From positions 11,292,411 through 11,356,410 of the forward strand of contig NC_087073.1 of assembly GCF_026151205.1 (NCBI RefSeq): DNA of 64,000 nt. The letters are read 5' to 3'. This DNA comes from Bolinopsis microptera (Eukaryota; Ctenophora; Tentaculata; Lobata; Bolinopsidae). Numbering within the stretch: position 1 is the first letter of the stretch; every line of letters starts with the position of its first letter. Below the pieces are notes generated by a model. It was not told where the DNA came from and did no database searches. It saw nothing but the letters and a program-made list of their open reading frames with translations. Position numbers and translations under genes: made by a program. This document shows positions 14,691-43,765 of the stretch, piece by piece.

Positions 14691-15305
14691 CTACATTTTG
14701 TTTGATTTCTCTGTATCCGAATTTTGAGACGTCAAATTGTCTGCAATAATAATTATAACACCAACTATCAGTCCCAGTCTTTGTTAGAAGGAACTTCATT
14801 AAAGTAATCATTGTCTTTAATTCTATCTCACGCGTGAGTGCTAATTAAGGGTCACTATTTATTATACGTTTAATCTCAAGTGCTCATGCAGTGTACTTTC
14901 AGTCAGCTTACATGTTATCTTACATGGCCAAGTAAGGGTTCTTTTGCGATAGTCAAAACGCGACAACTAGCGCTGGATGGCGACAACTAGCGCTGGCCAG
15001 CGCTAGTTGTCGCCATCCAGCGCTAGTTGTCGCTATCCAGCGCAAAATACAAATTTTTGATAAATTTTCGATAATTGTCGTGACAACTAGCGCTGGATAG
15101 CGACAACTAGCGCTGGCCAGCGCTGGCCATCGATAGCCAGCGCAAAATGTTTGCGATAATACTCGTCAGCTAGCGCTGGCCAGCGCTATCCAGCGCTAAC
15201 CAGCGCTAACCAGCGCTAACCAGCGCAATGCCAATGTATCAAAATCAAATACTTGCGATATTACTATATTAATATACTTGCAATATTACTATTAGTATTA
15301 GAATA

Positions 15306-15342
15306 GAGATTCGGCGGAATGACAGGCTGAGCGCCGCCCAGT
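15306..15342 (+). repeat. Dispersed motif shared with the 41-kb foldback
   Basis: GATTCGGCGGAATGACAGGC followed by TGAGCGCCGCCCAGTAA is also present at 41789-41825 (+) and, inverted, at about 41098-41135. It is a shared sub-module of otherwise different foldback elements. Confidence 0.8.
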
Positions 15343-15760
15343 AAGTTGAGCTCCGCCCAGCTAGTAAGCCAACGCTAGCTGACGATTGTAAATGTAGGTT
15401 TATAACCGTACCTTTACAAATATATGCGCACCGAGTTGGACTTGGATTTGAAAAAATATTTCCAATTTTACGAGTATCACCCGTTGGCGTTAAGCTGACA
15501 AAAAATATCGCAAATATATTGCGCTGGCCAGCGCTGGCTGAAGAGTAATATCGCAAGTATATGATTTTGATACATTGCGCTGGCCAGCGCTGGCTGGCGC
15601 TGGCTGGCGCTGGCCAGCGCTGGTTAGCGCTGGATAGCGCTGGCCAGCGCTAGCTGACGAGTAATATCGCAAACATTTTGCGCTGGCTATCGATGGCCAG
15701 CGCTAGTTGTCGCTATCCAGCGCTAGTTGTCGCTATCCAGCGCTAGTTGTCGCTATCCAG

Positions 15761-16264
15761 GGGGGGGGGGGGGGGTCCAAGGGGAACTTTGGGGAACTTT
15801 GGGAAAGTCCCCCAAGATTTCTGAAGTTCCCCAAAAAAAAGTTCCCCAAAACTCCCCAAAGTTCCCCAAAATTCCCCAAAATTATTCAAAATTGTTCAAA
15901 ATTATTCAAAATTATTCAAAATTATTCAAAATTATTCAAAATTATTCAAAATTATTCAAAATTTCTCTAATATACATTAATACCCATTAATGTTAACATG
16001 TATGTTATTATAAGGTATAATCTTAACTTACTTGTTGATACTTGCAGCATGATAATTTTTTTGGCATGATAATATTTTTGGGGAACTTTGGGGAATTTTG
16101 GGGAACTTTCTGAAGTTCCCCAAAAAAAAGTTCCCCAAAATTCCCCAAAATTATTTGTTTCATTGATAATTTTTTGGGGAACTTTGGGAAAGTCCCCCAG
16201 GTTTCCTGAAGTTCCCCAAAAAAAAGTTCCCCAAAACTCCCCAAAGTTCCCCTTGGACCCCCCC
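15761..16264. mobile_element. Nested element with GGGG...TCCAAGGGGAACTTT ends, 8-bp duplication
   Basis: A G15 run plus TCCAAGGGGAACTTTGGGG at the left is mirrored at the right by CCCCAAAGTTCCCCTTGGA plus a C run. The flanks carry CTATCCAG (15753-15760 and 16265-16272); removing the element and one copy restores the host AGCGCT array. The interior consists of 11-bp TTCCCCAAAA/TTATTCAAAA tandem repeats. Lysine/proline-rich open frames here are repeat artefacts. Confidence 0.8.
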
Positions 16265-16595
16265 CTATCCAGCGCTAGTTATCGAACTGTTTTCTGCGAT
16301 GGCCAGTTGCGCTGGCCATCGCAAACTATCGCGTGCGACAGTGTCGCATAGCCAGCGACAACTAGCGCTGGATAGCGACAACTAGCGCTGGATGGTGACA
16401 ACTAGCGCTGGATGGCGACAACTAGCGCTGGATAGCGACAATTATCGAACATATATATTTTGCGCTGGCCAGCGTTATCCAGCGCTGGATAGCGACAACT
16501 AGCGCTGGATGGCGACAACTAGCGCTGGATAGCGCTAGTTGTCGCCATCCAGCGCTAGTTGTCGCGTTTTGACTATCGCAAAAGAACCCAAGTAA

Positions 16596-19815: not shown

Positions 19816-21948
19816 AGGACCAGTTAACTGAAAAATTTGTAGTCTCTAATTTGGCTAAGATTTAAATCAGCTGTGACAAACTGGTAAAGAATCGTATCGC
19901 CGAAAGAACCAACTCTCTAGCGTACGTGTAACGCGTGTTATTGCAATAATAAGCTGTGGCCTCGTGACGTCATAAAGTCCCTCAGTGCGCGCTTGCATAG
20001 CGTAATTTACATTACAAATGTTTATCATCGTCAATAAAACACGTGTAACTCACTCAAATTTTAGAATTATGACTATTACCCTAGTTCTCCAAAATCCTTA
20101 TAGTTTTGGCTATCATCCTAACTAAAGGAATAGCTGATTGGATGTACAGTGCTCACGTCATGATTTTAAACAGTGATATAGGTTCTTGAACAGTGGCGGG
20201 TGAATGTACGGTTAGAAAGTTTCTGCTATTACAACTTATGAGTATTGCTGAAAGCACAATGTAAGGCCTACACGGACGGCCTCTAACTAGCCAAGCCCTG
20301 TTTACATGCCGTGTAGCAGGGGACTAGCATATGTGATAATTTTGGATTGTTTTCATTGCTTAATTACACAAGCAGGGAGACTGTACCGATTATTTTTCCC
20401 CAGTCCATGAAACTCTAACGAATTTAGAAAGGATACAGATAAGTTATAAATTATAAGTAGGAGTTTGTTCAATTCCGAGAGCAATTATATTTATAGCATA
20501 GCGAAATTTCTAACTTTAATCTGCAAGTGTCTGCCAGTACAGGAGACAAGAAGTCTGGCTACTTTACGACCGTTCCTCTGGGACCATTAGTAGAAGTAGC
20601 TTCTATCAAAACAGTGCCGTGGGAACAGAATTCCCGCCAAAATACCCGGTCTACCAAATAGTAAAATTACTGATTGGAGGTGTGTACGGTGTGAGGTGTG
20701 TTTTGAATTAGACTTCCGGCTTACCTAGTTGTTATCCTAATTGCATTATCATCGGTGCATAACATAAATAAACTACTGGTAAGTTTAAATACCAAGTGCA
20801 AACGTGTTCAGTCGATCGACCCACTGAACAACTATAGAATTTCCAAGACCCTATTATTCTCTGGCCATATATTACGGCACGATCGATTGTTAGATGGCTA
20901 AATGCCCAACGTTAATCTATACAATTCTAAAACTATGAGCTAGCACTTTAATCTAAAAATACCTTTTTTATATTACTCCTGATTTTTACATTTCACGTAA
21001 AACATTGTCGCCAGAGGTTGATCATGGACACTAACAGCTTAATTTGAGATAAATGACTATGAGTTTCTCTAAAGTTAACTCTAAAGTTGTGTAATGTGTA
21101 GTCCAGTCATTTATGGACATTTATGGAAATGAACCTGCAAATGTTCTAATACTCACGAAACTTTGCACAGACCTTCCCGAAGTTATGATTAAACGATTTT
21201 CGTTTGGAGACATTTTTTTGACCGTGGAGAAAACCCAGGAGGGCCACGCCATTATTGACCCAATAACGTAACCGACCCCTTGCTTCTGAAGGTCGTAGAG
21301 ACTTCAAAATAGGCTTGAACGAAGCCGCATATGCATGTTTATATAGGAGTTATTGAGCAACACATGGCCTAAAATCCTTACTTTTCGATAAATTCGCCAA
21401 AAACCATTTTGGGCGTGGTGCTAAGCCCATTTTCGATATGATCGTGATGGAGTCTTCAGACAGGATGCAAAAGAACCGCAATTAGCATATTAATATATGA
21501 CTTACGAACAAACATATGCCTTAAAGTGCTTACTTTTTCAGTTATTGGCGAAAAACTGATTTTCGGTTCCAGAAATCATGCAAAACTATGGGTATCTGGT
21601 TAATTGGGCTATGAAGGCCCTAAAGGTTTTTGAATGTGTGCAAATTGTGCAGAATGGCCATGTTTATATACAACTTATGAAGCAACATGTACCCTAAATT
21701 ACTTACTTTTCGAGTTATTCGGGGGAAAAGATTGTATTATGTCCATTTTTTACCTGTAAAATACAGTCTCACGAGCTACTCTGCGCGCAAGAGGGACTTT
21801 ATGACGTCATCGCCAAAATAATACAAACGCTATTTACACGCGTTAGAGAGCAGTTAGAGATTTAGGAATTTCGACTCGTTGCTTAGTTTGCTATTTGTCA
21901 CAATCTGTCAAAATATGAGGATAACTTTTTTTTCAGTTAACTGGTCCT
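19816..21948. mobile_element. TTAA-flanked non-autonomous element, Kolobok- or piggyBac-like
   Basis: TTAA at 19812-19815 and 21949-21952 borders 2133 bases with ends AGGACCAGTTAACTG and the exact reverse complement. Degenerate inverted similarity extends about 190 bases inward and includes a conserved CRE-like TGACGTCATAAAGTCCCTC in both arms. Three imperfect direct repeats with TTACTTTTCGA lie near 21380, 21520 and 21700. No open frame resembles a transposase. A TTAA duplication fits Kolobok or piggyBac; the AGG start favours Kolobok weakly. Confidence 0.8.
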
Positions 21949-21952
21949 TTAA

Positions 21953-22830
21953 GTTTTATCAACGCTTGCATTTTTCTTCTGGTGAACGGCACATCAATCT
22001 TGAACTAACCTGGCAGTAAAGCATAGGAAGACAAGAGGGTTAAGAAGATTATTTATTGTCAGTAGAGTCATCACAGCTTGTCCTATTCTTAATTCCGAAT
22101 CGTTCCCCACCTCTATTATTCGGTTTGGTCTGAAGACAATATTTTATAATTGGAGTATTCTGACAAATATTCATTATGTGGTATTAGGTGTGACAAGATT
22201 GAGTATACATTTCTATTATTTGCACTCTGAGAGCCTTATTATAAGGTTAGTGGTGTGACGACGATAGTGAAATTTCATTATTTGTGCTATCTTGATTAGA
22301 GTGAAGAATGTGTTTGGTTTTATACTACCATTCTAGTATACTACTATTCTATTCTAGCTAATGCTGTTTTGTATTTGGTAAGCGTTGAAGTCTTTTGTTT
22401 TAGCTTTTATAGTGACGATTTTAAATCTCTCACAACAAATATTATCTATTTTTACATGATTTAAATAAGCCTAGAACTATGAAGGCCTCAGCATTATCTA
22501 ACTCTGACGTATTATCTCACATCATAGTGATAGAAAGGTAGAAAGTAAAGGGTAAGTAGCAGACCAGGAAAGCCAGTAGGAGTGATATTACCATGCAGGT
22601 CAAATTCTGCTCAACTCTCCGCATAATTCTTTGTCCTTGACCCTTCTTTCTCTGAAGTTATTGAGATTATTATTTAATTATTATTTAATTGATTGTTCAT
22701 CTGTTAGAAACTTGAGTTTGATCGTGTGGGTACAACTAGTCTCGCTGTTTAAGAGGACAGCTTTATCATTTGTGTGGTTTGGAATGAAAAGATCGCAAAT
22801 ACCTATAACATAAGTATGTATAATAGTATA
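21953..22830. other. Non-coding stretch, no gene recognised
   Basis: AT-rich, with only short open frames without recognisable content. Confidence 0.4.
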
Positions 22831-22841
22831 ATGCCGACCGG

Positions 22842-22921
22842 CTATAATTAACCGGCTATTAGCCGCCTGTTAGAGGACTGGACCGTAACAACCGGCTACT
22901 AGTCGGCTAATAGCCGGTCGG
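22842..22921. mobile_element. Mini inverted-repeat element, CCGACCGGCTAT ends
   Basis: CCGACCGGCTAT at the left and ATAGCCGGTCGG at the right are perfect inverted repeats. Extra ACCGGCTA motifs between them give a compact foldback of about 80 bases. Confidence 0.6.
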
Positions 22922-22929
22922 AATTGTAC

Positions 22930-23939
22930 CTATTTGCCTGAAACGATTTCAGTTTGGAATGAAAAGATTTCAAATCGGAAACTTTGTATTGCAATAAAGT
23001 GACAAATAAAAAAGCTGTTGATTTATAACGCCATCCTGCTGGTGCCATATACAGATTTAGAGCATGTCACAATGCCTTAACATGTCACAGTATCTCAACA
23101 GGTTCACATAAATACCTTGAACATGCACTCCAACTAATATAACTAAGTCGAAACTAAAAGTAAAATGGCAATAAACTAGACAGATTTTAACTTATAGTTA
23201 AACTAATAGAAGACTTAAATAATTGTAAATTCTTTACCCAACCCCCTTCTAAATAGTCTGAAAACACCACGTGATGGCCATATAAGCAGTCAAATATTTA
23301 ATTGTAACTCACCTTCCTTCTGAGTAGTCTGAAAACGGTTGCAAAACTGAGCACCATAACTGCAAGGTTAGCTGCCAAAAACTCGACTAGTCTGCGAAAT
23401 TCCGTGTTAATCTCTTTTTAAGCTTTTATAAAAGGTGGGAATTTAAAGTATTTCAGTCATTCATTACTAAGTAAGGTGCCGAGGAAATAAAGTAAGCTCA
23501 AAGCGGGGGAGTGGGAGAAAGTTGGGAAACCTGTGGATTAGAAAGAAGTGTTGGGTGTTGCTGGCATATACAAATCTGAAGGACTGGAGACAGATTTTGT
23601 GGCCGTCTCTTTCTATGTACTGAAACTATTTGAACAATTATGTTAATCAAGTTTAAACTAGTTTGAATATGACTTTTTAATCAGTGGTTTACAGTTGGAT
23701 TAGCTTGAATAATCATCTTCAGCAGAAAATCAGGATATCTTTATTCTACTGCTTATTTATTTTCAGCTTTAATATATATATGTTAAGTAGTTAGCTATGT
23801 TGTTAGTTTCAATGTGAGAGTATGGACTGAGAAGTGGGAGGTTCAAGTATGACCTGTTGAGTGCATAAGGCTAAAGGTCCTCTCAAAGCAGGTCCGGATG
23901 TAGGTTTTACTGGTTTGAGGATTTCATCTTAGTTCTCTT
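22930..23939. other. Non-coding stretch, no gene recognised
   Basis: No exon, RNA gene or transposon border recognised. It may be the 3' flank of the GPCR on the minus strand. Confidence 0.35.
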
Positions 23940-24095
23940 TCAACTTTTTGTTAAAATTACATTTTCTTTATTGTTTCGAAGCGCTGATACTCTGAGAGCC
24001 TCGAAGACTGAGCCGCTTCCACTTGCCGGTAATGACAGCAATACATGCAAACTTATTGGTGTGTGAACGACTAATATAATTGAGAGCACACTGCC
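23940..24095 (-). CDS. Candidate fourth exon of the GPCR (weak)
   Basis: On the minus strand a good acceptor (CTACTGTTTTCACAG) is followed in the correct phase 0 by 51 codons and TGA. The product has one hydrophobic segment (LSIILVVHTPISLHVLL) that could be TM5 or an aberrant end. If real, the receptor would stop after about 195 residues, without TM6 and TM7. No homology supports it. Confidence 0.22.
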   Translation of the reverse strand, partial: GSVLSIILVVHTPISLHVLLSLPASGSGSVFEALRVSALRNNKENVILTKS

Positions 24096-24559
24096 CTGTG
24101 AAAACAGTAGTTCGATATACATTGATGTTTGAGAACCCGATTTAACGGACTAATTTTTATTTTCCCGCTCAGTTGACTGGCTTGGCTCCTGCAAACACAT
24201 TAGCCCTTTTGAGTACGGTTCGTGTCAATTCCCACCTCATTAACATTGAAATTGAAGTCCAGAGAAAGCGATTCTAAGAAAAGAAAGTGGCTAATCCAAA
24301 TCAATCATGGGCGGGCGTTTGCTGCTGTTACTATGTCTAATAAGTCTATACACAATATCGCCTTCTAATTTGTTAAAAATCCGTTCACCTCGGCCATTCT
24401 TAAACGCCACGATTCATTCAGCTACAATTATTTGTGACAGTTTTGCAGTTTTTGAAACCGGGTTTAGTTCCCACCTATAGATATTGTAATAGTTGTTTAG
24501 TTCCGACCTAGAAGTTCTTAAGTAGTTGTTGTTTTGCAACATTTAGATAAAACTGTTAC

Positions 24560-26767
24560 CTGATTGGTTGTTGTGTTCATGATAACTACCATGATGGACG
24601 AGTAGAAGACAACCGCCGCTCCGGCTGCTTTTCCGTACCAGACCTTGACTCTGGTTGCGTAGAAGAAAGGTGCGAGAACGGCCGCTACTCTGTCCACTGC
24701 TAGTAGGACTATAGTCCACATTGTACTTCTTATCACCAGACTGGTAGATATCCCGTAGAGCACACAACCCAGCTGTAATGTAAGAAATTATCCTAAATGT
24801 GGTTTAAAGAGATTATAGACTCTAAATGTTAACTCAATAGATAGTAGTACCCCGAGGCCAAATGTTATTTCAAAAGATTTTAGTATCCTAAATGTGGTTC
24901 AAAGAGATTTTAGCATCCCAGCTGTATTTTTAACAATTTTTAGCACCCCAAATGTGATATACAAATATTTTAACACCTCAAATGTAATAAAGGAGATTTT
25001 AGCACCCCAGCGAAGGTTTTAACACACCCAAATGCAAAAGTTTTAGCATAAAAACTTTTGTTTTGTAGTTTGGATTTTATAATCTTAACCAGTCCTTGCT
25101 TCTGGGAGTGGCCTTCTAAAAATAATAGCACAATAGCTCCAGGTTATTAATGAACTCTAAGTCCAGGTACGCTAACTTCATTGTATAGTTAATCTTAACC
25201 CTGGTTACCAGTTAGTGACCCTGGTAACCAGTTAGTTACCCTGGTAACCAGTTGAAATAATATTATAAATCATACAATTATAATTATTAGATTAGGTTCA
25301 CCATGCCAAGATTTCTGTAAGGGTCAGTTAGTTTTATTGTTGTTTAATTTTATATATTTAGTTAGCTTTATAAATTTAGTAATTAACTAACAATCCTTCC
25401 ACATATTCGTCCGACTGTTATCATCACAAAGTAGAGTCATAGCTTATATGAATTAAGCCATTTAGGACTCAGGAGAGTTCCAGACAATTTTTTTTGTCAT
25501 TGTTCATTATTAAATGGAGCGATGTTTGGACTTTAGAATGAACTGCATGGCTTTCAACAAATTCGAATACTGATTTGCCTTAATCATGTTAATAATGGAT
25601 GTTCAAATGGACCTTAATTAAAGCTATTGATATGAAATATATATAATCTAAATTCCCTGATTTTCATTTGTTCTAATTCTTCGCTCGCACAATCCTGTTT
25701 GTCTATTCACCACACAGACTGGTCAGGAAGTCAGCTGTACTCATCATTGAATACACTTTGTTTTCATTTCGATTCGGATAATGATTTACTTAACTGTTAA
25801 TTAAACGTTAATTTAGGCTATCAGTATAAAAGATTTGTCTAGAAATCTAATCGCTATTGAAACCCCTTTTATTTTGTTCGAATAGTTCGATCGTACGATT
25901 ATATTTGTTATTTTATTACCTACACAAAGCAGAGTGACCAACATGCCCCTCTTTCGAGGGGTGCCCCTCTAAACGGCCCTCGTTGGGCCTAATGCCCCTC
26001 TTTTGAAGGGGCATCGGTATTTATCCCTCTGAAGCTCAATAAAGTAAAACTGTTTAAATCAACTAATTTCCCCAAAAATGTTCGCCGGTGGCACTGGTAT
26101 TACTTTCAAAGTCAACCGTTCACCGTTGGCACTATTATTTGAGTTTTCTAATTGCGTATTGAGTTATTATAGGTTACAGGGGTTATTATAGGTTACAGGG
26201 GTGTAGGAAGAGGGAGGGGGGCTAATAATGTACTGGTATTCATGAAAATGGCTGACTAAAAATGTAAACTCTAAGACCCGAAGCTTCATTTAGGGCTAGA
26301 ATGCCCCTCTTTTAGGTCAAAATGTATGCCCCTCCTAGTTATTTTTCTCTGTTGATCAGTGTCACAGAGTGGTACGCCACGTGATCCCCATATAAGGAGT
26401 GTACCTACCTTGCCGAGTGGCCAGTTGTTCTCCCGAGTATCCATTATCAGAGAGGATATTCTCATGGGTAAGATGATGGTACCAATACATAGGTCGTACA
26501 CAGCCAGGAAGCTGAGTAACATCCGTGCAATTCCCTTTCTCGCCTGGGTCAAGGAAGTTATTTGAGACCTTCAGTAATTGTAATAATATATTGGTGTTAA
26601 CATTCACTCTTTGGGGTCGGCTTGATACATCATTATGTTTCTTCATTTTGAAAGAAGTTTTTAAAAGTTTATGTCAACGGTACCTTCTTAAGATGCATCG
26701 CCATTAGAACATTGAGGACAATTATCAGGACAGCTATCGTTATCACCACTCCCACTACGACTCCCAT
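24560..26767 (-). CDS. Class A (rhodopsin-like) GPCR, N-terminal part TM1-TM4, 3 exons
   Basis: Seven-helix G-protein-coupled receptor of unknown ligand. Exons 26767-26684 (28 codons), 26543-26409 (45) and 24772-24560 (71) all have phase 0 GT-AG borders. TM1 carries Asn19 (N1.50). TM2 has LAVYD with Asp45 (D2.50), followed by NNWP in the first loop. Cys76 (C3.25) precedes DRV (Arg101, R3.50) by exactly 25 residues, as in class A. TM4 follows in the same exon. ATG at 26767-26765 is preceded by an in-frame TGA, so the extracellular N-terminus is only a few residues unless another exon exists. No TM5-TM7 exon was confirmed downstream; the gene may continue or be truncated. A satellite with X-box-like motifs lies immediately upstream. 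Confidence 0.85.
25190..25257 (+). repeat. Three CTGGTAACCAG units in GPCR intron 2
   Basis: A short outlier of the large satellite at 26801-27630, in the same orientation, including GTTACCCTGGTAAC. Confidence 0.85.
25935..26012. repeat. GCCCCTCTTTCGAGGGG motif cluster in GPCR intron 2
   Basis: Repeated ATGCCCCTC(TT) words with inverted GAGGGG partners occur here and again near 26300 and 26328. They are probably the remnants of a small foldback element in the intron. Confidence 0.45.
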
Positions 26768-26800
26768 TATTAATCACCTAGATCAGTAACTGTTTAGTAG

Positions 26801-27630
26801 CCCTGGTAACCAGTTAGTAACCCTGGTAACCGGTAGTCACCTTGGTAACCAGTTAGTAACCCTGGTAACCAGTAGTTACCCTGGTAACCAGTAAGTAACC
26901 CTGGTAACCAGTTAGTAACCCTGGTAACCAGTCAGTAACCCTGGTAACCAGTTAGTAACCCTGGAAACCAGTTAGTAACCCTGGTAACCAGTAAGTAACC
27001 CTGTTAACCAGTTAGTAACCATGGTAACCAGTTAGTAACCCAGGTAACCAGTTAGTAACCCTGGTAACCAGTTAGTTACCCTGGTAACCAGTTAGTAACC
27101 CTGGTAACCGGTAGTCACCTTGGTAACCAGTAAGTAACCTTGGTAACCAGTAAGTAACCCTGGTAACCAGTTAGTAACCCTGGTAACCAGTTAGTAACCC
27201 TGGTAACCAGTTAGTAACCCTGGTAACCAGTTAGTTACCCTGGTAACCAGTTAGTAACCCTGGTAACCAGTAGTAACCCTGGTAACCAGTAAGTAACCCT
27301 GGTAACCAGTTAGTAACCCTGGTAACCAGTTAGTAACCCTGGTAACCAGTAGTAACCCTGGTAACCAGTTAGTAACCCTGGTAACCAGTAGTAACCCTGG
27401 TAACCAGTAAGTAACCCTGGTAACCAGTTAGTAACCATGGTAACCAGTTATTAACCCTGGTAACCAGTTAGTAACCCTGGTAACCAGTTAGTTACCCTGG
27501 TAACCAGTTAGTAACCCTGGTAACCAGTTAGTAACCCTGGTAACCAGTTAATAACCCTGGTAACCAGTTAGTAACCCTGGTAACCAGTTAGTAACCCTGG
27601 TAACCAGTGAGTAACCCTGGTAACCAGTTA
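26801..27630 (+). repeat. 19-20 bp satellite, about 43 units, RFX X-box-like, upstream of the GPCR
   Basis: The unit is CCTGGTAACCAGTTAGTAA. Reading across units, nearly every junction gives GTAACCCTGGTAAC or GTTACCCTGGTAAC. These fit the published RFX X-box consensus GTNRCC-N(0-3)-RGYAAC. Variants with an AT core (GTAACCATGGTAAC) occur near 27016 and 27429. The array starts about 35 bases upstream of the GPCR start codon. That it regulates the gene is inference. Confidence 0.9.
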
Positions 27631-27672
27631 TCACCACTCCCACCACAACTCCTTTTATTAATCACATAGATC
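27626..27672 (-). repeat. Duplicate of GPCR exon 1 start and 5' flank beyond the satellite
   Basis: About 47 bases match 26740-26790, which spans the GPCR start codon and the bases before it. In this copy the start codon is lost (CTTTTATTA replaces CCCATTATTA). The two copies bracket the satellite as direct repeats. Confidence 0.85.
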
Positions 27673-28780
27673 AGTACAATGGTGTTCACAAAATAAATAA
27701 TAATCATCGGATAACTTTAGGTTCCGTTAACGGAAATCTCAAAGAAGGCCGAATTTCAGTAACGTAAGGAGGTCATAACTCCTTACGTTACTGATAGCAA
27801 GCTCACGCGACGGTATTGTTAACAATATCACACAGAATATCACACAGAATCGAGTCCATTCAAATATGTGCTTATACACATGGTTGATACAATCATAGCT
27901 CTACCCACAACTAATCGAACCGATTCATTCACAGTGCAGTACCTACTTCACAACGATAACGCGCCTCCCACTAGACATGTTTAATACAGAAAGTAGAAGT
28001 AGTGCTGAACAATCCCGGTAGTTGACTTATTCACCTTCTTTACGATAGAAACATGCCAGTTGTAGGCAATTTACGATTATTGCTGGTGCCTCAGGCACCA
28101 GGTGCCTAGTAACTTTATTATATTGAATGTTAATGAAGATTTATTGCAATATTGCAATATTAGCAGTATTAATAGTATTGCAGTATTGATCATCATCCTT
28201 CAGCGCTAGATGAGAGCCTGAGCCGTTCAGTCGATCTTGATTGGCCTAATCGAGTTACCATCTTATTTACCATGTCAGCAAGCCTATTTATACTCTATTT
28301 CTGCTATCTGTCGAAGTGACTAGTGAGTACAAACAATTTTGCACAATACTTGGTTTTTGCGGAATAGCTAATCGATATTTTGTTTTCTTCATGCTTCCTT
28401 TTTCCCTCCTTGATGTCCAAGTTACAGTTTAACACGAGCTCCTCATTCATACAGAGCTGATGGGAAGGCGTTAGATAAAACGTTCTAATGTAATCACTAA
28501 TTAAATTCGTGTTATCTGTCAGTGTTATGTACTATCTATTATTATTATTACTTACTAAGTACTTGTTGAAAATACATTCACATAGATTAAGAAGTACTTA
28601 TGATTCTGTCATCAAATATATTCGCGTAAATTGAGAAGTACTTATAATACTGTCATCAGGTTTCGCACGTGAGAAGACGAGGGGAGAACTATAATGATTA
28701 CAATACAGAACGAGTTGTTTCAATAAAATCAATGGGTGCTATACTGATATAATAAGAGGCAAGACCATAAGCAATCGAGC
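27673..28780. other. Non-coding stretch, no gene recognised
   Basis: AT-rich intergenic sequence. A short inverted repeat (AGTAACGTAAGGAG with CTCCTTACGTTACT, 27758-27793) is the only structure noted. Confidence 0.4.
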
Positions 28781-30490: not shown

Positions 30491-30597
30491 CTAGCTAGTT
30501 TACCCTCGTTTATCATCATTGTCAGTAATCACACCTTTATTAGACACCTTTATCACACCTATATCACCTTTATCACACACCACTATCACTAGGAATC

Positions 30598-32267
30598 ATG
30601 TCTCTGGGCATCAATGACGTGTCCATGAGTAGCCTCCCCTCCACCTCCTCAAATCACCTAGCAACTCACCTAGCAACCACCTCCTCAGAGCACTGTGGGA
30701 ACTGTTTACTGAAGATACTGAAACCAGAACTTTTTCTAAAATTATCTTGTGGTCATGTATTCTGTGGTGAATGCTCTAAAGGATCTCCAGAAAGGCCACT
30801 GATATGTCAGCTTCCTTCGTGCGCAATATTATCACGACCACCTACAAAAATTACAGTTAAAGATTCGCTTGCTGATATCGAGATGGAGCTGGAGAGATTG
30901 AAACGGGAAAAGGAGAAGCTGCTTACATCAAAAGAGCGGGAGATTAAGAAGATGGCACTTGAGTTCCTGAATGAATGTAAAAACCAGAAGTTGGTAAAGT
31001 TGGATAAGCTGAAGGCTGAGTTGAAAGTGGTAAAAGAGGAAATTTGTTCTATGACCACTGCATTTATAGATGTCAATATGCCTGCCCAGGAAGGCGAGTT
31101 GAAATCCACCCCGAAAAACACAGATTGTATTAAATTTCCGAAAACGGAACAGATTTCAAACAACTACGCAAACATGCTTAAAAACTTCCCTGACCTAGAA
31201 ACTAATTACTTTTTGACCAAGTCTAAATACCAATCCATCGGCCAGCTAATCTACAATGCTTTCAAATACGAATCATTGGTTGAGGTGGGTAAAATAGTTG
31301 TAGCTGAGACTCCTTCCACCAGAACCTACGTGTACGGAATGGCAGTAGGTATCTCCGGAATGTTATCTGTGGCGGGAACGCTGAAGACAGTGAACATCTA
31401 CAATCCTGCTGTTGAAGACAGCCCTCTACCAATAGTCTACCCCATCACAAAGCTCCCTTCTAACTCCTTTACCTGGTCCTCCGCCTGGAACCCCTGTTCC
31501 CCAAACTTGCTAGCAGTAGGAGACTACAACAGTGAGGTTAAGATCTGGGATGTAGTTGGGAAGGTGGCTACCAACACCTTCCACGGCCACACCGCCAGCA
31601 AGTACCTCCACGTCTCCTGGAGTCCAACCAAACCTCAACAACTCCTCTCTGCGGCGTACGACTCCGCTCAGGTCAGAGTGTGGAGGTTGAACGAGAGGGG
31701 GAGTGTGATGAGTATACGAGCTCCTGATAAACTGCTTAACTTGTCTTGTAAACCTCACTCTCCTTACCACTTTGCGGTATCTTCCATTGATAGAAATATT
31801 TACTCTTATGACATCAGAAAACCAGATAAACCGGTAAAACGCTATCTGGACACGCTAAATCCGTGTTTCAACTAAAGTTCCTCGACAGCAAGACACTCAT
31901 ATCAGCTTCAGTGGACGGGACACTGAGACAGTGGGCCTTCGAAAGTTCCCAGTGCATCAAAACCTACAAGGGGCACCAAAACACCGTGAAATTCATAGGT
32001 CTAGACATGATTGGAGAGCACATAATATGCGGTAGTGAAAACAACTCAATCTATCTCTACCACGAAGCCCTCTCCAAACCAGTAATGACTCACCAGTTTC
32101 CCAAACCAACAAGTCTCCTGGGAAATCCTACTGGAAACGGTCAGGTGAGACACATCAGCGCTGTAGTGACTGCTGGAGACAAGCTGTGTGCTGCAAACGA
32201 TGCCGGGGTTATAAACATTTTGAGGTTCAGTGAGGATGAGAAGCTGAGACGTGTTGGTTCTTGTTGA
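30598..32267 (+). CDS. COP1: COP1-like RING/coiled-coil/WD40 E3 ubiquitin ligase, single exon, one frame break
   Basis: COP1 is a nuclear/cytosolic E3 that binds substrates through its WD40 propeller and works with CUL4-DDB1 or Tribbles (family knowledge). The RING has C33, C36, C51, H53, C56, C59, C70 and C75 (C3HC4, last pair widened). A coiled coil at about 90-155 matches COP1 (ALEFLNECKNQK..LDKLKAELKVVKEEI). The WD40 repeats run from about 235 to the end, with GSENNSIYLYHEALSK near the C-terminus, which is highly typical of COP1. The first frame ends at 31875. The homologous frame continues from about 31840. One extra A in the A run at 31836-31839 would join them into about 556 residues (human about 731). 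It has no introns, unlike vertebrate COP1, so it may be a retrocopy. The break may be a homopolymer sequencing error. Confidence 0.9.
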
Positions 32268-40142: not shown

Positions 40143-40897
40143 CCGCCCCATGAGTATCAAAATTTCTTTTTAACGGGTGGGACATACCTGACCCATACCC
40201 CATCAGTATCAAAATTTCTTTTTAACGGGTGGGCCGCCCCATGAGTATCAAAATTTCTTTTGAACAGGTGGGCCGCCCCATGAGTATCAAAATTTCTTTT
40301 TAACGGGTGGGCCGCCCCATGAGTATCAAAATTTCTTTTTAACAGGTGGGACATACCTGAACCATGCCCCATGAGTATCAAAATTTCTTTTTAACGGGTG
40401 GGCCGCCCCATGAGTATCAAAATTTCTTTTTAACGGGTGGGCCGCCCCATGAGTATCAAAATTTCTTTTTAACGGGTGGGACATACCTAACCCATGCCCC
40501 ATCAGTATCAAAAACATTTTCAGAGGGTGGGCCGCCCCATGAGTATCAAAATTTCTTTTTAACGGGTGGGCCGCCCCATGAGTATCAACATTTCTTTTTA
40601 ACGGGTGGGACATACCTGACCCATGCCCCATCAGTATCAAAAACATTTTCAGAGGGTGGGCCGCCCCATGAGTATCAAAATTTCTTTTTAACGGGTGGGC
40701 CGCCCCATGAGTATCAAAATTTCTTTTTAACGGGTGGGCCGCCCCATGAGTATCAAAGTTTCTTTTTAAGGGTTGGGACATACCTAACCCATGCCCCATC
40801 AGAGTTAGTGGGGACCATAGGCGGCAGCCCCGGCGGCGATCAGATCAGGGTATCATTAAAACCTGTACGAGTGGGACGGTATGGTTTGGGTAAACGT

Positions 40898-41010
40898 TAG
40901 GGTTAGGGTAAGGGTTAGGGTTAGGGTTTGTGTTAGGGTTAGGGCTACTGCTAGGGATGAGGTTAGGGTTAGGGATGAGGTTAGGGTTAGGGTTAGGGTT
41001 AGGTAATACA
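40898..41010 (+). repeat. Interstitial TTAGGG-type array, forward arm
   Basis: TTAGGG repeats with GGGATGAGG variants, mirrored as CCCTAA at 42455-42558. They sit in the foldback arms, so they are element-borne, not a chromosome end. Confidence 0.85.
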
Positions 41011-42454: not shown

Positions 42455-42558
42455 CCTAACCCAAACCCTAACGTAACAACCCTAACCTCATCCCTAACCC
42501 TAACCTCATCCCTAGCCCTAACCCTAACACAAACCCTAACCCTAACCCTTACCCTAAC
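42455..42558 (-). repeat. CCCTAA-type array, reverse arm
   Basis: The mirror of 40898-41010. It continues for about 20 bases at 43163-43185 after the inserted TA element. Confidence 0.85.
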
Positions 42559-43162: not shown

Positions 43163-43765
43163 TACCCTAACCCTAACGTTTACCCAAACCATACCGTCCC
43201 ACTCGTACAGGTTTTAAAGATTCCCTGATCTGATCGCCGCCGGGGCTGCCACCTATGGTCCCCACTAACTCTGATGGGGCATGGGTCAGGTATGTCCCAA
43301 CCCTTAAAAAGAAACTTTGATACTCATGGGGCGGCCCACTCGTTAAAAAGAAATTTTGATACTCATGGGGCGGCCGACCCGTTAAAAAGAAATTTTGATA
43401 CTCATGGGGCGGCCCACCCTCTGAAAATGTTTTTGATACTGATGGGGCATGGGTCAGGTATGTCCCACCCGTTAAAAAGAAATGTTGATACTCATGGGGC
43501 GGCCCACCCGTTAAAAAGAAATTTTGATACTCATGGGGCGGCCCACCCGTTAAAAAGAAATTTTGATATTCATGGGGCGGCCCACCCTCTGAAAATGTTT
43601 TTGATACTGATGGGGTATGGGTCAGGTATGTCCCACTCGTTAAAAAGAAATTTTGATACTCATGGGGCGGCCCACCCGTTAAAAAGAAATTTTGATACTC
43701 ATGGGGCGGCCCACCCTCTGAAAGTGTTTTTGATACTGATGGGGCATGGGTCAGGAGTAGTATGA

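Follow-up and report, generated by a model that had tools for sequence, protein, structure and literature searches.

An X-box-like minisatellite between duplicated 5′ ends of a putative receptor gene in Bolinopsis microptera

Minisatellites lengthen through slippage or unequal exchange, and polymerase theta end joining gives rise to templated insertions with tandem duplications. In Tribolium castaneum, the TCAST families are euchromatic satellites that are dispersed, often as single repeats by genes; the excerpted part of the report on them proposes a spread by transposition or recombination and possible effects on neighbouring genes (PMC5844308). For RFX proteins, an excerpt of PMC10530576 gives the monomer site as GTTRCY and the dimer site, the X-box, as GTNRCC-N0-3-RGYAAC. 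X-boxes are prevalent in conserved human non-coding elements, beyond promoters, according to an excerpt of PMC2797782. A search of one open library returned no literature tying the RFX X-box to satellite DNA, tandem repeats or transposable elements, and a search there with the motif letters returned, among the matches listed, no full 14-mer of the core described below.

Here we describe an array in a 64,000-nucleotide stretch of the Bolinopsis microptera genome (hereafter the window) that resembles each of these systems in part. As with TCAST, satellite-like units are dispersed over many genomic places. Compared with what the excerpt says of TCAST, the Bolinopsis arrays differ in that they share just a 14-bp core while their spacers vary, and in that some core sites carry host duplications of 9–58 bp. 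Tandem, near-identical short units stand at many places, as in a dispersed satellite, but an identical unit across these places was not found. The head-to-tail arrangement of short near-identical units and their local homogenisation are those of minisatellites; unlike in usual minisatellites, one core is common to many arrays, and some arrays lie between duplicated host flanks. Filler between duplicated host flanks is also a feature of polymerase theta insertions, and at two sites the host flank contributes part of the core. In contrast to such insertions, the filler at many places is one and the same motif, an outcome not expected from ordinary end joining. The core agrees with the loose dimer consensus of the X-box, and its centre is AT in 31 of 35 isolated direct-form cores, but unlike an X-box it also stands in arrays, and the commonest of its forms counted has one half outside the consensus. 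A further departure from the isolated cores is the CT centre in 36 of the 42 units of the window array.

The array at 26794–27630 (no strand assigned) is a 20-bp minisatellite, delimited by TRF and characterised by splitting into units, a variant table and consensus counts. TRF reports the consensus TTAGTAACCCTGGTAACCAG with period 20, 42.2 copies and 92% matches. Unit-by-unit splitting yields 42 units with a left part of 8 bp in 36 and 7 bp in 6. The first-pass annotation had noticed a tandem array of X-box-like sites at this position by a receptor start; the array is confirmed, with about 42 units by either method in place of the 43 proposed. Nearly every unit carries the loose X-box core GTAACC-CT-GGTAAC. 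The proposed fit to the loose RFX consensus also holds, with 41 plus-strand matches to GTNRCC-N0-3-RGYAAC within the array, 38 of the N2 and 3 of the N3 type; four of the 41 are palindromic and are matched again on the minus strand. If GTTRCY is required on both sides, 4 dimers are left in the 42-unit array. Single GTTRCY half-sites number 77, of which one strand carries 73 and the other 4. Good half-sites on both sides are confined to 4 units, which would limit any RFX binding at this array.

Related sequence is found elsewhere in the window. A small cluster of about three units of the CCTGG/CAGTTAG type, reported by the first-pass annotation as an intron outlier, is real (25190–25257, no strand assigned; TRF 25198–25253, 2.8 copies) and lies between putative exons 2 and 3 of the receptor gene. 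In the 63 kb outside the array, both strands together contain 9 loose matches, compared to 0.35 expected from a first-order Markov model. Three of these fall in the intron cluster, three in a 9-bp minisatellite at 101–206, and three at other positions. This nine-base minisatellite, TTACTTAGG, gives its three loose X-box matches on the minus strand; 9-bp GTAACNNNN arrays occur here and at one other sampled locus (L118). A genome-wide search for the unit type of the window array with up to 3 mismatches found 47 matches, 37 of them in the receptor gene. The remaining 10 are relatives of the CATGG/CTAG type, all at exactly 3 mismatches, and at up to 2 mismatches the unit type was found nowhere in the genome except in the receptor gene (array and intron cluster).

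The putative receptor gene is read from the minus strand in three exons that share one frame when read by eye. Exon 1 (26684–26767), also assigned by eye, comprises the ATG and a TM1-like segment, MGVVVGVVITIAVLIIVLNVLMAMHLKK, and ends at a GT donor. Exon 2 (26409–26543) would encode the TM2 region; its match to Pfam 7tm_1 is weak (E 0.037; 13.9 bits, under the cut-off of 30.5), and its splice sites were placed by eye. Exon 3 (24560–24772), covering the TM3–TM4 region, scores 25.4 bits against Pfam 7TM_GPCR_Srsx, above the cut-off of 24.1, and 17.7 bits against 7tm_1, under the cut-off. No paralog of exon 3 was found in the genome at E 0.001, where the sole match is exon 3 itself. Scanning 20000–25258 in the three minus-strand frames with stops read as X returned no Pfam receptor family. 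Because this read-through scan missed the known exon 3 too, it is weak evidence about later receptor exons. The putative start codon is the CAT at 26765–26767, which places the array 26 bp away; the first-pass annotation was right about the nearness, although its distance of about 35 bases was too long. Beside the receptor, a 443-aa open frame (30544–31875) shows a RING-like finger and WD40 repeats, with Pfam scores below cut-off.

The last array unit leads directly into a second copy of the receptor 5′ end, a feature absent from the first-pass annotation. Local alignment of the gene-proximal flank (26739–26788, minus strand), which contains the putative start codon, with the distal flank (27627–27676, minus strand) gives 45 identical positions out of 50 and a score of 75, compared to a maximum of 23 in 200 shuffles. 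In the distal copy, the position of the start codon reads AAA instead of ATG. An array between two diverged copies of a 5′ end looks like what an insertion leaves when it duplicates its target, here over about 50 bp. The array would then adjoin the start codon because this insertion hit the receptor 5′ end. We favour, with some reservation, the explanation that break repair brought core-bearing DNA into this place, where it subsequently expanded. A short piece of such DNA would have entered the first exon or 5′ leader of the receptor at a staggered break, and about 50 bp of host sequence would have been doubled when this break was filled in. Templated repair from a different core-bearing site is the probable source of the insert. 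Slippage or unequal exchange would then have expanded it to 42 units, and homogenisation of these units would have produced the locus-specific subtype CCTGG/CCAG. On this account, proximity to the start codon would reflect where the break fell and not selection of a promoter element; the array would probably have no function there, and RFX binding, if any, would be a side effect.

Flanking duplications are also present at other core sites. We scored a direct repeat near both edges of a core site, with a threshold of at least 9, in a sample that is weighted, among the matches listed, to the first 8 Mb of contig C1. Sufficient flank was available for 38 array rows and 59 isolated rows; 27 of 388 cores fell outside both sets. 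A duplication was found at 10 of the 38 array rows and 6 of the 59 isolated rows, and none at this score at the other 28 and 53 rows. These row counts still hold repeats, either the same places twice (L016/L139 and L078/L109) or near-identical loci. Merging rows with alike flanks into groups leaves 9 of 31 array groups and 6 of 51 isolated groups. The duplications at L005 and L015 are internal to longer tandem units, which reduces the array count to 7 of 31 independent loci; the flanking repeats of L034 were set aside with those of L015 and the L005 rows on the same grounds. With mismatched flanks as control, the rate is 0.6% for arrays and 0.4% for isolated cores, and random positions outside tandem arrays give 0.5% at a gap of 80 and 1.1% at a gap of 14. 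A broader count of 21 of 108 clusters includes six L005 rows, and its 5% random control is inflated by positions inside arrays. In neither set are 10 cores that occur singly within a TRF array, of which three (L023, L032 and L066) score at least 9.

The seven array loci with duplications are the window (46–50 bp), L011 (57–58 bp), L012 (45–48 bp), L013 (37–39 bp, exact), L051/L053 (40–43 bp; one segment, 97.7% identical), L061 (14 bp) and L135 (13 bp). At isolated cores the duplications measure 15 bp at L138 (exact) and L057, 14 bp at L041, 11 bp at L063 and 9 bp at L031 and L048; the context of L041 is locally repeated. At L138 and L066, the core is composite, with one half taken from the host flank and the other added at the junction. 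Since most sampled sites have no duplication, the insertion route is shown for a minority only. The missing duplications could be due to age, or to slippage without insertion.

How widespread the core itself is became clear from genome-wide counts of five of its forms, with the reversed pattern as control. These counts refer to sites and not to loci, so that arrays are counted many times and palindromic forms once. The commonest form counted is GTAACC-NN-GGTAAC (6123 sites, 22 reversed), whose GTAACC half breaks the GTTRCY monomer rule. It is followed by GTTACC-NN-GGTAAC (1221 and 10), GTTGCC-NN-GGTAAC (910 and 8), GTAACC-NN-GGTTAC with two poor RFX halves (373 and 6) and GTTGCC-NN-GGCAAC (164 and 0). 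In sum, isolated sites and arrays together, the five forms occur 8,791 times compared to 46 in the reversed control. Genome-wide spread of the satellite without promoter bias had been named at the outset as an outcome that would speak against a promoter role; as to the spread, it holds for the core, whereas the exact unit type was found only at the receptor gene.

The 35 isolated direct-form cores have little common flank, with no column outside the core above 0.45 bits. Three of them (L055 twice and L064) sit in a common repeat, and several have extra half-sites nearby. The neighbouring columns hardly show period 9, and we dropped the nine-base minisatellite as sole origin of the core. Isolated cores fall into open frames of at least 100 aa in 14 of 66 cases, compared to 13.9% of random window positions, which shows open frames to be neither clearly avoided nor clearly preferred; at L048 the core lies within an apparently coding frame of 155 aa. 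For the canonical X-box match GTTGCCATGGCAAC, 4 of 15 sampled places (L073, L106, L111 and L117) are in copies of one repeat. L106 and L111 are alike over 4 kb, and the match is repeat-borne there. The recurrence of a core with little common flank is the remaining oddity, and could be caused by RFX selection or by self-spreading through repair.

Periods of the sampled core arrays range between 9 and about 56 bp, including 18, 20, 21, 22, 24, 25, 30, 31, 33, 43 and 53 bp. Two exact cores 20 bp apart were found at 42 places and at none in the reversed control. The 20-bp arrays elsewhere differ from each other in the 6-bp spacer (TAGTTA, ACACAC, AGTCCA, AATACT, AACAGT, ACCCGG, GCCACA, CATATA and others) and have mainly the core in common. 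The window array is most likely one of many local minisatellites that share the core GTWACC-NN-GGTWAC. At L093, the array spacer AACAGT is present also just outside the array, as expected if a seed had been extended by local slippage. A similar derivation of the L089 and L092 spacers from their flanks was dropped, since the flank there is part of the array. Copying is visible as well. The arrays L011 and L012, about 1 Mb apart, end in the same succession of unit variants, from which we conclude that a block of units was copied. One unit type is common to six sampled loci in C1:0.16–1.8 Mb, and the exact unit ACTAGTTAGTAACCATGGTAACTAG has 12 matches, all within this same region, which suggests local copying. 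A further array, L134 (C3:291300–294300), contains at least 40 cores, mostly GTTGCC-AG-GGTAAC, with spacings mainly of 25 and 51 bp.

The genome encodes candidate partners for an X-box. A genome search for the RFX DNA-binding domain returned three exon matches at two loci above the cut-off, and the exon on C9 closely matches human RFX1 (2.3e-24). In L087 (C4:11983800–11987700), a palindromic X-box, GTTGCCAAGGCAAC, stands at C4:11985293, about 1.9 kb upstream of an exon for an RFX DNA-binding domain; RFX autoregulation through this site is possible. At ciliary genes, eight loci with tektin exons, several of them from one gene, contain no loose site, although most of these loci stop short of promoters. 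The 20 open reading frames of 12 GTTGCC-NN-GGTAAC loci gave Pfam matches above cut-off only for a kinesin (L123), a sulfotransferase (L124) and WD40 (L127), and the 10 open reading frames of nine GTTGCCATGGCAAC loci only for a LIM protein (L112).

Variants within the window array comprise 5 events in the 11 RFX-specified positions and 16 in the 9 free positions, and one of 19 circular shifts of the pattern is as low. L088 (1 of 20 shifts) and L118 (1 of 8) have the same leaning; the corresponding values are 3 of 19 each for L094 and its copy L095, and 3 of 8 for the minisatellite at 101–206. No such constraint was found at L005 (34 of 52 shifts), L006 (9 of 21) or L089 (12 of 19), and we therefore set aside variant constraint within arrays as proof of selection.

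The first-pass annotation had suggested that the array might act as a homotypic enhancer of the receptor. Such a receptor-specific RFX enhancer would fit the 26 bp between array and putative start codon, the 41 loose sites together with the 77 half-sites, and the presence of RFX genes in the genome. It would have to work with 4 two-good-half dimers among 42 units, and it does not account for the copies of the receptor 5′ end on either side of the array, nor for the recurrence of the core, with varied spacers, in other arrays genome-wide. That the read-through scan of 20000–25258 names no receptor family counts weakly in the same direction. We consider this enhancer very improbable, and the alternative raised along with it, that the unit expands for mechanical reasons, was judged right. 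A role for RFX beyond this one gene has more to build on, and yet seems rather unlikely. The core would be the organism's X-box, with RFX dimers binding the palindrome; isolated copies would be regulatory, arrays would be by-products of local duplication, and the array beside the receptor may give some RFX input. Apart from the DNA-binding domains, one of them close to that of human RFX1, this would explain why each of the three counted forms in which both halves are good shows an enrichment of about 110-fold or more and why the enriched forms show the purine/pyrimidine freedom that RFX allows. The AT centre of the isolated cores without much common flank, the avoidance of RFX-specified positions by variants in the window array with the leaning at L088 and L118, and the prevalence of X-boxes in conserved human non-coding elements point the same way. 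Against it stands the commonest form, one half of which breaks the monomer rule as given in the excerpt of PMC10530576. The form with two broken halves is enriched all the same (373 to 6), which RFX selection alone does not predict. The repeat copies among the GTTGCCATGGCAAC places, the core in an apparently coding frame at L048 and the three arrays without constraint also disagree with selected sites.

Mobility could be provided instead by a dedicated transposable element with the X-box array as its body, an enzyme of its own and long, variable target duplications. The range of duplications from 9 to 58 bp, the agreement of L011 and L012 in the order of their terminal variants and the occurrence of a fold-back-like element with 20-bp tandem units in the same window (about 14936–16589) are compatible with this proposal. 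We regard it as improbable, since no constant ends or common body were seen, spacers differ between arrays, the isolated direct-form cores have little common flank, and the confinement of exact ACTAGTTAGTAACCATGGTAACTAG units to one region suggests local copying. Possible, if doubtful, is a reading in which the 14-bp X-box-like palindrome is itself a minimal self-spreading sequence, copied by repair into staggered breaks with duplication of 9–58 bp of host DNA each time and then expanded into local satellites. Insertion during repair alone would leave the kept core of the isolated sites unexplained, and a selected binding site would look alike. RFX binding of part of the genome-wide core load is possible, and so is a decoy or sponge effect. 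As to the array beside the receptor, it is more likely a chance neighbour.

If one short motif of the transcription factor type can seed many different minisatellites and travel with duplicated host flanks, binding sites would have a simple way to spread without a transposon, and Bolinopsis would be a natural test case for asking if mutation and repair drive RFX-like sites or selection keeps them. If the palindrome spreads by itself, thousands of RFX-compatible sites would be scattered over the genome, some of which might be recruited as regulatory elements or act jointly as an RFX decoy. The window contains further repeats of other kinds. The fold-back-like element at 14936–16589 has inverted ends (GGGTTCTTTTGCGATAGTCAAAACGCGACAAC and its complement) and AGCGCT tandem units of 10–20 bp, with AAGTAA on both sides. 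A telomere-like GTTAGG repeat and its inverse CCTAAC, at 40896–41003 and 42455–42558, lie within a larger inverted structure, and 39-bp CCCATGAGTATCAAAATT units at 40198–40777 recur in inverted orientation at 43271–43755.
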